Shown here one piece after another: positions 2,139 through 14,417 of a stretch of 26,225 nucleotides of DNA. The notes beneath the pieces are model-generated. The model was not told the DNA's origin. It ran no database searches and worked only from the letters and a program-made list of their open reading frames with translations. The position numbers and the translations under genes were made by a program. Each line of letters begins with the position of its first letter. Position 1 is the first letter of the stretch. Source of the DNA: a virus; the IMG/VR virus record IMGVR_UViG_3300000234_000024, positions 1 to 26,225 of that record. One strand, written 5' to 3'.

Positions 2139-2876
2139 TTAGAATCCTTCATCAATGTCTTGTGCGACGACGATTTCGATTTCAGAAAATCTCAAATTTA
2201 ATGATATGAATGCGGGCATTCCGTTTCTGTGCATAGAAAACATACCCGCTCCCGTATAATCCACATCGATATTAGTAATAACCGAGCGTTTAAATTTATG
2301 GATAAACTCGTTATCATTATCCATAAATTTATAAGCAATTTGGAATTCAGATGGATATCCTAAAATTGATCCACTATTTCTAAAATCTGGTAAAGCTGAT
2401 TTTCTAAATAGTTTAATAATATCGTGAATTAAATTACTTTGTCCTTCATCTTTTGGTGAAAATTTAAATTGGAATTCAAATGTTCTGAAGTCGACGCCGC
2501 GAAAAACCATCGTTAAAAATGGGTTTAGAATTTGAGCGCCAAATGCTCCTCCCGTCGCCGCGGTGTCAGCAGCAGTCGCTCCCCATTGAGGGGCAGCATT
2601 CATCACTACTTTTGCCGCATTCGCCGCCGCATCCCATGATGAAACGGCATCTCCTAATTCTCCGCTCCTATGAGCTGCAATAGCTCCACCTAAAAGCTGC
2701 TTAGGATCAGTGTCCCAAGAAACAGTGTTCGGGTTTGCAAATTTTTCAGGCATATATAAACAAATTGTATCTTTTGCGCTACTTTGTCTAATACTTGTTC
2801 GTTCAAAAATATCAAACTGCATCCAAGCTGGAAAGGCGGTGGCGTTTTTAATTTCTGGTGGATAGATTAAATTCAT
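2139..2876 (-). CDS. 48: Baseplate tail tube cap, gp48-like
   Basis: I chose the ATG at 2876 because GGAG lies 8 nt upstream; a TTG further up lies beyond the late-promoter box and is unlikely. The protein has 245 residues, shorter than T4 gp48 (364 residues). Conserved stretches are NPFLTMVFRGVDFRTFEF, a FKFSPKDEGQS motif, LGYPSEFQIAYKF and, near the end, NIDVDYTGAGMFSMHRNGMP. gp48 caps the baseplate hub and, with gp54, starts tube polymerisation. The alanine-rich segment near residues 75-115 probably forms a helical insertion. It is the first gene of the leftward late operon 48-53-27-5, with its promoter directly upstream. Confidence 0.8.
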   Translation of the reverse strand: MNLIYPPEIKNATAFPAWMQFDIFERTSIRQSSAKDTICLYMPEKFANPNTVSWDTDPKQLLGGAIAAHRSGELGDAVSSWDAAANAAKVVMNAAPQWGATAADTAATGGAFGAQILNPFLTMVFRGVDFRTFEFQFKFSPKDEGQSNLIHDIIKLFRKSALPDFRNSGSILGYPSEFQIAYKFMDNDNEFIHKFKRSVITNIDVDYTGAGMFSMHRNGMPAFISLNLRFSEIEIVVAQDIDEGF

Positions 2877-2889
2877 CTGTCCATCTCCG

Positions 2890-2897
2890 TATAAATA
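2890..2897 (+). promoter_or_regulatory. T4-type late promoter for the rightward gp4 operon
   Basis: The plus strand carries TATAAATA here. The expected transcript start is near 2904, some 20 nt before the gp4 ATG at 2924. Together with the minus-strand box at 2903-2910 it forms a near-perfect 21-bp palindrome, so the two polymerases would start in overlapping DNA and move apart. Confidence 0.85.
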
Positions 2898-2902
2898 ATC
2901 AT

Positions 2903-2910
2903 TATTTATA
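2903..2910 (-). promoter_or_regulatory. T4-type late promoter for the leftward baseplate operon
   Basis: On the minus strand the sequence reads TATAAATA, the exact T4 late-promoter box. The expected start of transcription is near 2896, giving a leader of about 20 nt before the gp48-like ATG at 2876. It overlaps head-on with the rightward late promoter at 2890-2897. Confidence 0.85.
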
Positions 2911-2923
2911 CACAAAATTTAAC

Positions 2924-9520: not shown

Positions 9521-9673
9521 TTATCTCGTAAATCCCCATGTAACCGACGCGGTGATGGCGAATGCGGATAACCAATAAAACATGTCTCCATATTTGCCAT
9601 GAGATGCCCACCATATCGCATTTAACACATACAGAAACATGATGAAATAATTAAATAGTTTCGGATCAATCAT
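9521..9673 (-). CDS. Small two-TM membrane protein, holin candidate
   Basis: This 50-residue protein begins MIDPKLFNYFIMFLYVLNAI. Two hydrophobic segments (about residues 6-23 and 31-49: FYWLSAFAITASVTWGF) are joined by a short polar turn (SHGKYGD), and the end is FTR. Size, two TM segments and position directly after a cell-wall hydrolase gene fit a class II-type holin or pinholin. Its ATG at 9673 overlaps the hydrolase stop, with no separate Shine-Dalgarno sequence, indicating coupled translation. The holin role is inferred from context; it could also be another small membrane protein. Confidence 0.6.
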   Translation of the reverse strand: MIDPKLFNYFIMFLYVLNAIWWASHGKYGDMFYWLSAFAITASVTWGFTR

Positions 9674-10139
9674 TTTTATAAAACGTATGTGAGCCCACCG
9701 TGGCAGTTTTTCTCATTTTTGCCGCCCACCTTGGGCGAGCTATTTTATTATTATGAAATGATACACTGCTTCCAACTTCCCGAACGCGATATCCTTTAAC
9801 AGCAAGTTGAACAACTTGCTCAATATCATTTTTAGCTTCACGATTGACAATTTTCTTATTTTTACCTACCCATGAAAACTGACCGGACTCATTAACAACT
9901 TGACATACATTCATTTTTGTCTCTTTCGCGCGATTTAATGTCACTTGAGCTACAGCAATCTGTCCTTCAATTGGTTCACCTCTAGCCTCATGATATACGT
10001 TATTAACAAGACATGCACGGTCATTTGGATTAAGTGTAACTTCTGGTTGCGTTTTAGTTATTGTGGCGCTAAACGTCGCAGGGTGAACTAATATCGCTAC
10101 AATAACAAATATGACTTTAATTATTTTCAGATTCTGCAT
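9666..10139 (-). CDS. SleB-type cell-wall hydrolase, secreted (endolysin candidate)
   Basis: This 157-residue protein has a cleavable-looking signal peptide: MQNLKIIKVIFVIVAILVHP with a likely cut after TFSA near residue 25. The Hydrolase_2/SleB domain follows: CLVNNVYHEARGEPIEGQIA near residues 43-62, then VAQVTLNRAKE, VCQVVNESGQFSW and a C-terminal VSFHN region. The Glu in YHEARGE (residue 51) is the expected catalytic acid of this lysozyme-like fold. A signal peptide allows Sec export, so activity may be held back until the membrane is depolarised. The gene overlaps the ClpP-like gene upstream by 23 bp and the holin candidate downstream by 8 bp. Confidence 0.85.
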   Translation of the reverse strand: MQNLKIIKVIFVIVAILVHPATFSATITKTQPEVTLNPNDRACLVNNVYHEARGEPIEGQIAVAQVTLNRAKETKMNVCQVVNESGQFSWVGKNKKIVNREAKNDIEQVVQLAVKGYRVREVGSSVSFHNNKIARPRWAAKMRKTATVGSHTFYKND

Positions 10140-10704
10140 TTTTAGCTTCTAACCAAGTTACTAGACGAGCTTCGATATCTTTAGAGGTTAGCCAAATTTC
10201 TATACCGTTACGAACATTGTTAAGCTCATCTTCTGTCAAAAATCCAGTATATGTAGTCTTAAACATTTTATCCATAATATCAGATAAGAACTGAGATCTA
10301 ACCTTCACGTTCAATGCGTGACCAGCAGTTCCGAAATGTGATGGATGAATCATCATACTACCATCTTCATAAACCATAATTTCAGGGCAATTTAACGCGA
10401 TAAGCGAACATGCGGAATGACATGATCCTATGATATGAGCAATAACTCGCGCTTGCGAATTTTTGATGGCGGCGATAATAGAAATGGCGCTTTCAACTGA
10501 ACCGCCACCAGAATTAAAATAAAAGTGAAATGTATCATGTTCAGATGCCGAACTCAATGAGCTAATCAACCTTCGATATCGACTAGGCTGAATAATTTCT
10601 GAATCGAAATGAACGTCGTGTTCATATACTGTCATTTCTCGAGTAAGAATAAACTGAGTGTTGTCAAATGCAAACTCGTATTCTTCGTCTTCTGAATTCT
10701 TCAT
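10117..10704 (-). CDS. ClpP-like serine protease
   Basis: This 195-residue protein is the usual length of ClpP. It shows the oxyanion loop NSGGGSVESAIS (residues 64-75), the nucleophile region IIGSCHSACSLIAL with Ser at about 97, and MMIHPS with the catalytic His at about 120. The third residue (Asp) is not clear in FKTTYTGFLTEDEL, and the C-terminus is of the phage type (IEIWLTSKDIEARLVTWL). It could degrade proteins with a Clp ATPase of the host, or process phage proteins. AGGAG lies before the ATG. It is the first gene after the permuted tmRNA and its terminator, so a working link between tagging and proteolysis is attractive but unproven. Confidence 0.85.
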   Translation of the reverse strand: MKNSEDEEYEFAFDNTQFILTREMTVYEHDVHFDSEIIQPSRYRRLISSLSSASEHDTFHFYFNSGGGSVESAISIIAAIKNSQARVIAHIIGSCHSACSLIALNCPEIMVYEDGSMMIHPSHFGTAGHALNVKVRSQFLSDIMDKMFKTTYTGFLTEDELNNVRNGIEIWLTSKDIEARLVTWLEAKNAESENN

Positions 10705-10720
10705 TATATTTCTCCTAGTT

Positions 10721-10750
10721 AAAAAAATAAGGGGAAAAATTCCCCTTATT
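10721..10750 (-). terminator. Rho-independent terminator of the tmRNA gene
   Basis: On the minus strand an 11-bp stem (AATAAGGGGAA / TTCCCCTTATT) with a 3-nt loop is followed by a run of Ts (10725-10721). It lies between the tmRNA coding piece and the ClpP-like gene. The ClpP Shine-Dalgarno AGGAG follows about 7 nt later, so read-through or a separate promoter is needed for that gene. Confidence 0.92.
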
Positions 10751-10939
10751 AACTTTAGCGATTCGTTAGATTATACAGTGAATCAAACTGCATCTTGTGG
10801 CATTAAGCAGCAAGAGCAAAGATGTTATCGTTTGCATTTACAGTCGTTTGTTTCTGCGTTTAGGAAAACCTAAACTTACGGGTTTCACATTCCCGAGCGC
10901 CTATATTTCTATCTTCCCACGTCGAAACCTAGCAGCCCC
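10751..10939 (-). ncRNA. ssrA: tmRNA coding piece
   Basis: It begins with the acceptor strand GGGGCTG and a D-loop segment GGTTTCGACG like that of bacterial tmRNAs. Next come the P2 strand, a CGGG/CCCG hairpin and a 7-bp GTTTAGG/CCTAAAC hairpin (the PK1 region), the resume codon GCA at 10835 and the tag. After the tag stop there is a possible short stem (GATTC/GAATC) before the terminator. The mature 3' end is unknown. Confidence 0.88.
10803..10835 (-). CDS. ssrA: tmRNA proteolysis-tag reading frame, ANDNIFALAA
   Basis: From the resume codon GCA the frame reads ANDNIFALAA and ends in TAA. With the alanine carried by the charged tmRNA the tag is A-ANDNIFALAA. E. coli uses ANDENYALAA, so the ALAA end read by ClpX and most of the SspB-binding N-terminus are kept. 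There is no start codon, as expected for trans-translation. Confidence 0.92.
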   Translation of the reverse strand, partial: ANDNIFALAA

Positions 10940-10985
10940 ATCAAATAAACAGAATTCTGTAAAGGAACTCATCTATCTGTTTATT
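10940..10985 (-). other. tmRNA intervening segment, removed by processing
   Basis: Forty-six nucleotides separate the CCA end from the 5' end of the coding piece. AATAAACAGA (10985-10976) pairs with TCTGTTTATT (10953-10944), which stacks on the acceptor stem and brings both pieces together in the precursor. The loop contains the 12-bp palindrome ACAGAATTCTGT. This is the expected layout of a permuted tmRNA precursor. Confidence 0.82.
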
Positions 10986-11055
10986 TGGTGGAGCTGGGGA
11001 GCATCGAAGCTCCCGTCCGCAAAACATTCAAAATATAAGTTTACGCTGTTTTAGT
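10986..11055 (-). ncRNA. ssrA: tmRNA acceptor piece
   Basis: This piece carries the P2 strand (TATATTTT), GCGGAC, a T-arm at 11014-10997 and the acceptor strand CAGCTCC with an encoded ACCA end. The T-arm reads GGGAGC TTCGAT GCTCCC, that is a 6-bp stem with a 6-nt loop (or 5 bp and 8 nt), one nucleotide longer than the E. coli form. The 5' end, between the exonuclease stop and about 11055, is not fixed. Confidence 0.88.
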
Positions 11056-11058
11056 TAT

Positions 11059-11646
11059 TTAGTTGAGCGCTAAGAACTGCATTCTCATCGCATCGAGTGC
11101 TGCATCATGTAAAGGATCGTGCATGATAAATTCTTTAGGAGTCCCGCTCGGAAGTTCAAACTTACCAGTGTTCGATCCTAGGAGTACGTCAATAACAGTT
11201 CGAATATCCCTCGCTTTCCATAAATTGACAGGTAGTTTCATTTCCGCTTGTCTGTAGATGGATTCAAGAATTGGAACATCGAACGCAATTCCTCGACTCA
11301 TTACAAATGATTGTTTGAAATCATATTTTGATGATTTAACCCAATCATCAAATGCGCCTAAACCATCGACAATGGAAACATCATTTGCACTTGGAGTAAA
11401 TGAAATCGCTCGAGCTTCTTCCGATTGCATTTTCCACCAATTTAATGTCTCCGGGCTAATTGTCCGCGCGTAATTATGCCGCTGATCTTTTACTGAGAAT
11501 TTAACAAAAAATCCATCATCAACGATATCGACAAATTTACCATCATCTTCAAAAGCAAAAACTGTCGCGCCGAGGGATAAAACGTATGCAGTCGATACTA
11601 CATCCAATGTTTCCCAGTCAAAAATCAAGTGATGCCTGATTGACAT
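11059..11646 (-). CDS. DexA-like 3'-5' exonuclease (DEDD family)
   Basis: This 195-residue protein has the first exonuclease motif at HLIFDWETLDVVSTAYVLSL (Asp and Glu near residues 10-12). Next are a typical ISPETLNWWKMQSEEARAIS segment of the Rv2179c-like/DexA group near residues 63-82, FDDWVKS, SRGIAFDVPILESIYRQ, and a final HDPLHDAALDAMRMQFL with the His/Asp pair. The enzyme should remove nucleotides from 3' ends of DNA (or RNA); T4 DexA does this to single-stranded DNA. GGGAGG lies about 8 nt before the ATG. It overlaps the small gene upstream by 22 bp, and its stop is next to the tmRNA acceptor piece, so the tmRNA precursor may be cut from the same transcript. Confidence 0.82.
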   Translation of the reverse strand: MSIRHHLIFDWETLDVVSTAYVLSLGATVFAFEDDGKFVDIVDDGFFVKFSVKDQRHNYARTISPETLNWWKMQSEEARAISFTPSANDVSIVDGLGAFDDWVKSSKYDFKQSFVMSRGIAFDVPILESIYRQAEMKLPVNLWKARDIRTVIDVLLGSNTGKFELPSGTPKEFIMHDPLHDAALDAMRMQFLALN

Positions 11647-13511: not shown

Positions 13512-14417
13512 TTAATCATCAAGCATTGCCTGATAACGCGCAAATTCATCATCCTGATCACTTGATGTTGGAGCAGCCTTGGTAACTGGAGGTTTCTTTG
13601 GCAAATCATCCGCGAACACATCGTCGCTTTCATCAATAGAGTTTGTGTTGCTTGCTGCATTTTGTGCTGGAGGACGTGATGCTGGAGCTTCGTTATTACC
13701 TAACACAAAATTAAAACGCTTTTTAAGTTCGTCATATGATTTAAACGTTTCCGATGCAATCAAAGGTTGAAGCGGATATTCCGCTTCCCAAACAGATTCC
13801 AATTCATCATCATTATCTTTCAATGGAGCGGGGCTTTCAAATGATGATTTGTCATAGTTGATTTGACCTTCAACTTTAACAACTTTCAATTTAAAATCTG
13901 AGCCTTCCCACAAATCAAACACATTAACTTGTTTTTCATCTTCGAATTTCGGATTCAACATGTCAGTAATCTTAGCGAAAATTTTAGCGCCATATTTAAA
14001 CAAAAATACTTTACCGTTATTTTCTGGATGCTTAGGATCTGAAATCATGTAGATATTTGACACGAAAGATTTCCGACGCTTGCGCTTGCGCACAATATCT
14101 TGATTCGCTTTTGTGTTCGTGTTCCAAAGAATATTATTCGATTCGTTAACTGGATCATCCTTTCCAATAGTGCTCAGACAGCGTTCAATATACCACTTAC
14201 CATTAGCTTCGTTTTGAAAACCATGATCGTATTGTGTGATATAAGGGATTTCTTCTCCTTCAGCGGCGGGAAGGAAGCGGAATACAGCGTATCCATTACC
14301 CGCTGGATCCAATTCCGGTTTCCAGAAACGTTCGTCGTTAAATGATTTTTCTTCCGTAGAAGCCATTAATTTTGTTAGTGTTGCGGTTGAGTTCTTTTTT
14401 AGTGCTGCGAATGACAT
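13512..14417 (-). CDS. 32: Single-stranded DNA-binding protein, gp32-like
   Basis: The protein has 301 residues, the same as T4 gp32. The N-terminal LAST-like segment (LKKNSTATLTKLMASTEEKS) is the cooperativity region, the core follows (DHGFQNEANGKWYIERC; SNIYMISDPKHPENNGKVFL; PLKDNDDELESVWEA), and the C-terminal 60 residues are acidic (FADDLPKKPP; SSDQDDEFARYQAMLDD), ending in the flexible tail that contacts other replication proteins. His65 and Cys80 match T4 His64 and Cys77, but the CPVC pair of T4 is replaced by a DPVNE segment, so the zinc site is missing. AGAGG precedes the ATG. It has its own promoter inside the end of the gp59-like gene. Confidence 0.95.
   Translation of the reverse strand: MSFAALKKNSTATLTKLMASTEEKSFNDERFWKPELDPAGNGYAVFRFLPAAEGEEIPYITQYDHGFQNEANGKWYIERCLSTIGKDDPVNESNNILWNTNTKANQDIVRKRKRRKSFVSNIYMISDPKHPENNGKVFLFKYGAKIFAKITDMLNPKFEDEKQVNVFDLWEGSDFKLKVVKVEGQINYDKSSFESPAPLKDNDDELESVWEAEYPLQPLIASETFKSYDELKKRFNFVLGNNEAPASRPPAQNAASNTNSIDESDDVFADDLPKKPPVTKAAPTSSDQDDEFARYQAMLDD

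Follow-up and report, generated by a model that had tools for sequence, protein, structure and literature searches.

A complete, circularly permuted tmRNA gene of betaproteobacterial type and its ClpP-like neighbour in a T4-like phage genome fragment

Results

The locus and its genomic neighbourhood

The stretch of DNA analysed here (the window) is the whole 26,225-base virus record, a 26-kb fragment of a T4-like phage. The assignment to T4-like phages, already made in a first-pass annotation based on the letters alone, was confirmed by PHROG and Pfam matches to T4-type proteins. The PHROG matches comprised tail and baseplate proteins, a tail tube protein, homologues of gp4 and gp2, gp32 and a DexA-family exonuclease (the T4 gene names are those that we take the PHROG descriptions to denote), and Pfam indicated in addition an RNA ligase, a ThyX-like protein, a ClpP-like protease and a SleB-like hydrolase. 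On the minus strand, a gene for a DexA-like 3'-5' exonuclease (11059-11646; phrog_255, 1.5e-53; PF16473, 1.2e-25) lies directly upstream of a tmRNA gene, and since its stop codon is only 10 nt from the acceptor piece of the latter, the two are probably co-transcribed. The tmRNA gene is followed by an intrinsic terminator, found by a terminator and inverted-repeat search, that consists of an 11-bp stem and a T run (10726-10750, minus strand). Directly downstream of the terminator is a gene for a ClpP-like protease (10117-10704, minus strand; PF00574, 6e-11; phrog_1827, ATP-dependent protease, 6.6e-48), the end of which is overlapped by that for a SleB-like cell wall hydrolase (9666-10139, minus strand; PF07486, 3.4e-20). 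A gp32-like ssDNA-binding protein, a marker of T4-like phages, is encoded at 13512-14417 of the same strand (phrog_224, 8.1e-101; PF08804). Elsewhere in the window, the T4-late-promoter-like sequence TATAAATA is present on both strands, at 2890 (plus) and 2910 (minus), between a baseplate gene (2139-2915, minus strand) and a divergent gp4-like gene (from about 2903 on, plus strand).

Identification of the tmRNA gene

The minus strand from 11048 to 10803 holds a complete, circularly permuted tmRNA gene of betaproteobacterial type. The Rfam model tmRNA_permuted (RF04321) matched exactly this span, from its first to its last position, with 102.6 bits (E 2.9e-19; gathering cut-off 47 bits), and the beta_tmRNA model (RF01850) matched 11122-10725 with 88.5 bits (E 1e-25; gathering cut-off 84 bits); these E-values exclude a chance match to the tmRNA models. 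ARAGORN, run separately, reported a permuted tmRNA (tmRNA*) with the tag ANDNIFALAA. The first-pass annotation had read the locus as a two-piece tmRNA gene with the acceptor part ahead of the coding part and had proposed a check with Rfam models and ARAGORN; two Rfam models scoring above their gathering cut-offs and the agreement of ARAGORN bear that reading out.

The acceptor piece (10986-11048, minus strand), with boundaries derived from the RF04321 alignment and ARAGORN, comprises the 5' strand of P2, the T arm, the 3' half of the acceptor stem and an encoded CCA, its 3' end being CAGCTCCACCA (position 10986). It is followed by a 46-nt spacer (10940-10985, minus strand), presumably lost on maturation, which was recognised by an inverted repeat that forms a long hairpin beside the CCA and the start of the coding piece, an architecture like that in relatives. 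The coding piece was delimited with Rfam and ARAGORN as far as the stop codon of the tag (10803-10939, minus strand). It opens at 10939 with GGGGCTG, the 5' half of the acceptor stem, and continues with the D-loop GGTTTCGACG (10929-10920, minus strand), the 3' strand of P2, the resume codon and the tag; position 10803 marks the tag stop, and the piece runs on beyond it toward the terminator. The tag reading frame ANDNIFALAA* (10803-10835, minus strand; ARAGORN and sequence) starts at the resume codon GCA and reads GCA AAC GAT AAC ATC TTT GCT CTT GCT GCT TAA (10835-10803). A D-loop (here with the motif GGTTTCGAC), a resume GCA codon and a stop-ended tag, all of which had been noticed at first pass, were found, and the tag carries a Clp-type degradation end.

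The announced 7-bp acceptor stem with a G-U wobble is also present, the wobble being G3-U70 and the CCA being encoded. This G3-U70 stem is common to all entries compared (127/127), many of which were picked by a pattern that fixes some of those bases, so that the count, although it confirms the form, does not amount to independent evidence. The hairpin that had been said to join the two pieces corresponds to a 21-nt inverted repeat, 90% complementary (10933-10953/10976-10996), and the precursor folds with -102.3 kcal/mol as compared with -73.8 ± 5.1 kcal/mol for dinucleotide shuffles (z = -5.6). The P2 duplex proposed between the pieces is possible (-17.3 kcal/mol) and belongs to the RF04321 model, but its energy alone is not significant, as 111 of 1000 letter shuffles match it.

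The T arm, GGGAGC-TTCGAT-GCTCCC (10997-11014, minus strand), was delimited by comparison with other permuted genes and may be drawn either as 6 bp with a 6-nt loop or as 5 bp with an 8-nt loop. Compared with a canonical T arm (5 bp, 7-nt loop), it has the UUCGAU core but is 18 nt long, and the model reads one insertion. In the 125 other permuted genes compared, a redundant set, the arm measures 17 nt in 120 and 16 nt in 5; that of the window is one base above the commonest length and exceeds all 125. The 16-nt arms, one base under the usual length, are found in viral permuted tmRNAs (L050, L053, L063, L068 and L030).

The enlarged T arm and the long branch of the window tmRNA on the tree described below would fit a gene that is decaying, or one that does no more than inhibit the host tmRNA or serve as its decoy, without full trans-translation. 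For such an inhibitor there is a precedent, since the tmRNA of phage DS6A, which has no tag frame, inhibits the endogenous tmRNA when expressed in Escherichia coli, according to the summary of this work in PMC11915505. However, the tag frame, resume codon, G3-U70 acceptor stem, CCA, D-loop and terminator of the window gene are all intact, and five further viral genes of the permuted form have a T arm of non-standard length (16 nt), of which at least L050 has an ordinary tag; we give decay or a decoy role only a slim chance. The identity of the gene as a tmRNA follows from the agreement of two Rfam models with ARAGORN and from the presence of the acceptor stem with G3-U70, the CCA, the D-loop, the GCA resume codon and a stop-ended 10-residue tag with ALAA at its end, and we consider it quite probable, judging from the sequence, that this is an intact permuted tmRNA gene of betaproteobacterial type in a T4-like phage, the product of which would be processed by the host and would tag stalled translation products.

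Relatives of the tmRNA gene

The search of related phages suggested in the first-pass annotation was run on 51 phage records, nearly all from T4-like relatives and collected mainly through the gp32 of the window, and a permuted tmRNA scored above the cut-off in 25 of them. These carriers include the isolates Stenotrophomonas phage Marzo and Xanthomonas phage X1, and a permuted tmRNA is also present in the isolate BUCT-ZZ01. This survey, together with the tmRNAs published for Melnitz (PMC9004378) and Marzo (PMC8928761), refutes the view that a permuted form is little or not described in T4-like phages, and a claim to the first permuted tmRNA in such a phage was rejected on the same grounds. Many relatives had no detected tmRNA, some of them merely through short contigs, and the tmRNA therefore seems dispensable.

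A pattern scan of viral contigs yielded at least 80 loci, which may include host ssrA at prophage borders; among the 80 listed, ARAGORN reported a tmRNA in 77, permuted in 76. The metagenomic contigs compared are redundant and may be incomplete. In bacterial genomes, the pattern was present in 27 stretches, mostly from Betaproteobacteria and Stenotrophomonas.

The window tmRNA does not exceed 61% identity to any relative in the comparison and occupies a long branch on the tree of the compared permuted tmRNAs, which gives it no supported placement. At the DNA level, similarity to isolates was confined to short stretches, one of about 37 bases in the tmRNA and others in gp2 and gp4, and neither the ClpP nor the DexA of the window had a close relative in a single-protein scan of viral contigs. 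This divergence also bears on the origin of the gene. Since ssrA is often used by integrative elements (PMC11915505), the locus could in principle mark a prophage attachment site in a host ssrA, or stem from contaminating bacterial DNA. However, T4-like phage genes lie on both sides of it on one contig, the DexA-like gene ends 10 nt upstream, and no compared gene is closer than the identity given above; the attachment-site candidate was rejected because phage genes flank both sides, and we regard either origin as extremely improbable.

Among single genomes, X1 (L223; OQ427096, 121009-121337) has a permuted tmRNA with a tag read as VAANDADYSVARYA and no annotated feature at the site. In BUCT-ZZ01 (L389/L400; ON615601, 116952-117248), an RF04321 match above the cut-off overlaps an annotated hypothetical CDS. 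Another match above the cut-off, unannotated, is found in Sinorhizobium phage Phosso (L390/L399; PV764938, 349596-350198); it is 603 bases long and therefore implies a very long spacer.

Spacers and spacer reading frames

The spacer-end hairpin between the CCA and the coding piece is kept in all, or nearly all, of the permuted genes compared, in which the spacer ranges from 20 to about 196 nt. In five T4-like viral contigs, the spacer contains a small reading frame (L119:852-1349, L137:1876-2333, L327, L355 and L367, with 60, 44, 52, 41 and 41 aa, respectively) that begins just past a Shine-Dalgarno-like AAGGA in the 5' strand of the hairpin and ends with a TGA situated one base ahead of the coding piece. 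The spacer proteins of L355 and L367 are homologous (24/41 residues), and because the differences between their frames fall mostly at third codon positions (15/7/20 at the three positions; dN 0.33 vs dS 2.1), the comparison suggests that these frames are truly coding. The 46-nt spacer of the window is too short for such a frame. No tRNA genes were detected inside spacers by ARAGORN. We found no paper on tmRNA spacer genes in the open-licence literature, which is weak evidence of novelty. The 188-nt spacers of three further genes (L143, L146 and L213) look as if the beginning of the coding piece (TGATGGAGATGA) had been partly duplicated together with its hairpin.

The ClpP-like neighbour

About 100 nt separate the tag stop from the start of the ClpP-like gene, which lies 21 nt beyond the terminator. 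Its product matches the ClpP peptidase family PF00574 with 43 bits (curated cut-off 20.2); of the catalytic triad (Ser-His-Asp), Ser and His are aligned and invariant, and in one alignment of six sequences a Glu falls on the third position. A phmmer comparison with solved ClpP structures gave no match to this protein. In a T4-like viral ClpP subfamily other than that of the window, a permuted tmRNA is located 1.5-4.4 kb upstream of ClpP in 53 of 80 loci, always on the same strand, and a SleB-like gene was detected within those 53 loci, whereas only 2 of 80 bacterial-type ClpP loci, taken as a control, contain a permuted tmRNA. tmRNA, SleB and ClpP, in this order, form a block that is conserved among T4-like viral contigs. 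From the remaining 27 loci, 12 records were searched with Rfam: in 5, a permuted tmRNA is present that had escaped ARAGORN or is located beyond the locus, and none was found in the other 7, all of which are contigs of less than 14 kb.

The adjoining ClpP gene hints at a phage tag-and-destroy set. It is possible, if rather unlikely, that the tmRNA and ClpP genes form one module in which the phage ClpP subunit joins host ClpX and clears or recycles truncated or host proteins. The short distance between the tag stop and the ClpP gene in the window and the excess of same-strand tmRNA genes at T4-like ClpP loci over the control speak for it, as do another phage group (L017, L219) in which ClpP directly adjoins the tmRNA and a further one in which a bacterial-type ClpP precedes the tmRNA by 1-2 kb (L220, L221), with GroES and GroEL following in L220. 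On the other hand, the T4-like cases may reflect one inherited gene order, BUCT-ZZ01 and Phosso carry both genes far apart, and no ClpP was found in Marzo and X1, nor in the fragments searched of most gp32 relatives that have a tmRNA; in the window itself, a terminator separates the two genes and the third catalytic position seems to hold Glu. More doubtful still is a wider proposal, that T4-like phages possess a protein-quality-control set in which the phage tmRNA tags nascent chains and the phage ClpP joins host ClpX to destroy them, the targets possibly being host proteins or products of cut messages. Adjacency to ClpP as a general rule was rejected, given the 2/80 bacterial-type loci and the separation of the genes in BUCT-ZZ01 and Phosso. 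The open-licence literature yielded no paper on a tmRNA-ClpP link, again weak evidence of novelty. As a separate observation, bacterial-type ClpP, permuted tmRNA, GroES and GroEL stand in a one-strand row in L220 (G055:55000-62000), a possible phage proteostasis cluster; we take the last two genes to be GroES and GroEL from our own reading of the sequences.

Discussion

By analogy with known permuted tmRNAs, the 46-nt spacer hairpin would presumably be excised by host enzymes, among them RNase P for the 5' terminus of the coding piece, and the two pieces would stay joined through the acceptor stem and P2. The host alanyl-tRNA synthetase should charge the tmRNA with alanine through G3-U70. With host SmpB, the tmRNA would then enter ribosomes stalled on broken mRNA and append ANDNIFALAA, the LAA end of which would direct the product to ClpXP. 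The likely gain for the phage would be that ribosomes are kept available while messages are cut in infection, and the adjoining phage ClpP might conceivably help to dispose of the tagged products. An SmpB gene was found neither in the window nor in 19 other records by a search that was positive in 10 of 14 control genomes, and host SmpB is therefore presumably used. The fit to the beta model suggests a host with a beta-type tmRNA.

In trans-translation in E. coli, ClpX reads the terminal LAA and the adaptor SspB reads upstream residues. A comparison of 26 distinct viral tags of 10 residues shows A1 and N2 without exception and D3 almost always, F or Y at position 6 in 25 tags, variable positions 4-5, and an LAA-like end with A always as the last residue. 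Such constraints are the pattern expected of a tag that is used.

A different purpose would be served if the phage tmRNA took the place of a host tmRNA that host shut-off or RNA-cleaving defences had eliminated, by analogy with nuclease-evading phage tRNAs. This would suit a T4-like genome and the position of the tmRNA among tRNA genes in G040 and Marzo, and phage tRNAs have been published as a counter-defence (PMC10264068). However, the analysis gave no sign of host tmRNA destruction, and we hold this purpose to be unlikely; it is compatible with, and not exclusive of, the preferred reading of an intact gene that tags stalled products.

The window tmRNA is one more example of a phage feature already described, and the RF04321 model and a phage tmRNA count have been published. 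What the survey adds is that T4-like aquatic phages frequently carry permuted tmRNAs, many of which lie in a conserved neighbourhood that includes a ClpP-like protease, and that an unannotated copy is present in at least one publicly available phage genome (X1); through the survey, the purpose of the phage tmRNA becomes a testable question.

Comparison with known systems

Methylophilales phage Melnitz, of aquatic origin, resembles the window in being a T4-like phage with a permuted tmRNA gene (ssrA), and the paper that describes it counted 53 two-piece tmRNAs in phage genomes (marine or aquatic samples were the source of 50) and a permuted tmRNA in 17 of 47 related contigs (PMC9004378). However, the Melnitz ssrA is of the alphaproteobacterial type, whereas the window tmRNA fits the beta model; the former is said to be under the control of a glutamine riboswitch, and the paper mentions no Clp protease (PMC9004378), whereas the window tmRNA has a ClpP-like neighbour. 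The tmRNA of Stenotrophomonas phage Marzo (MZ326868, 70994-71368; 119 bits with RF04321) is likewise carried by a T4-like phage and has been called beta-class (PMC8928761). Unlike that of the window, it stands among tRNA genes before nrdA; its spacer measures 57 nt and its ARAGORN tag is VAANDDSYTVRIAA, as compared with 46 nt and ANDNIFALAA, and no ClpP was found in Marzo, whereas a ClpP-like gene adjoins the tmRNA of the window. With the betaproteobacterial two-piece tmRNA (RF01850), the gathering score of which it passes, the window gene shares the order of the pieces and a tag of the ANDxxFALAA kind (cf. ANDERFAIAA of Azoarcus), but it differs in its divergent sequence, its 18-nt T arm and its being phage-encoded. 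Finally, T4-like viral contigs such as L066/L216, L019/L215 and L075/L217 have, like the window, a permuted tmRNA, a SleB-like hydrolase and ClpP on one strand in one neighbourhood. In their block, the order is tmRNA-SleB-ClpP and then gp32, whereas in the window gp32 lies upstream and the order is tmRNA-ClpP-SleB, with a ClpP that belongs to a different subfamily (low identity) from that of the block.
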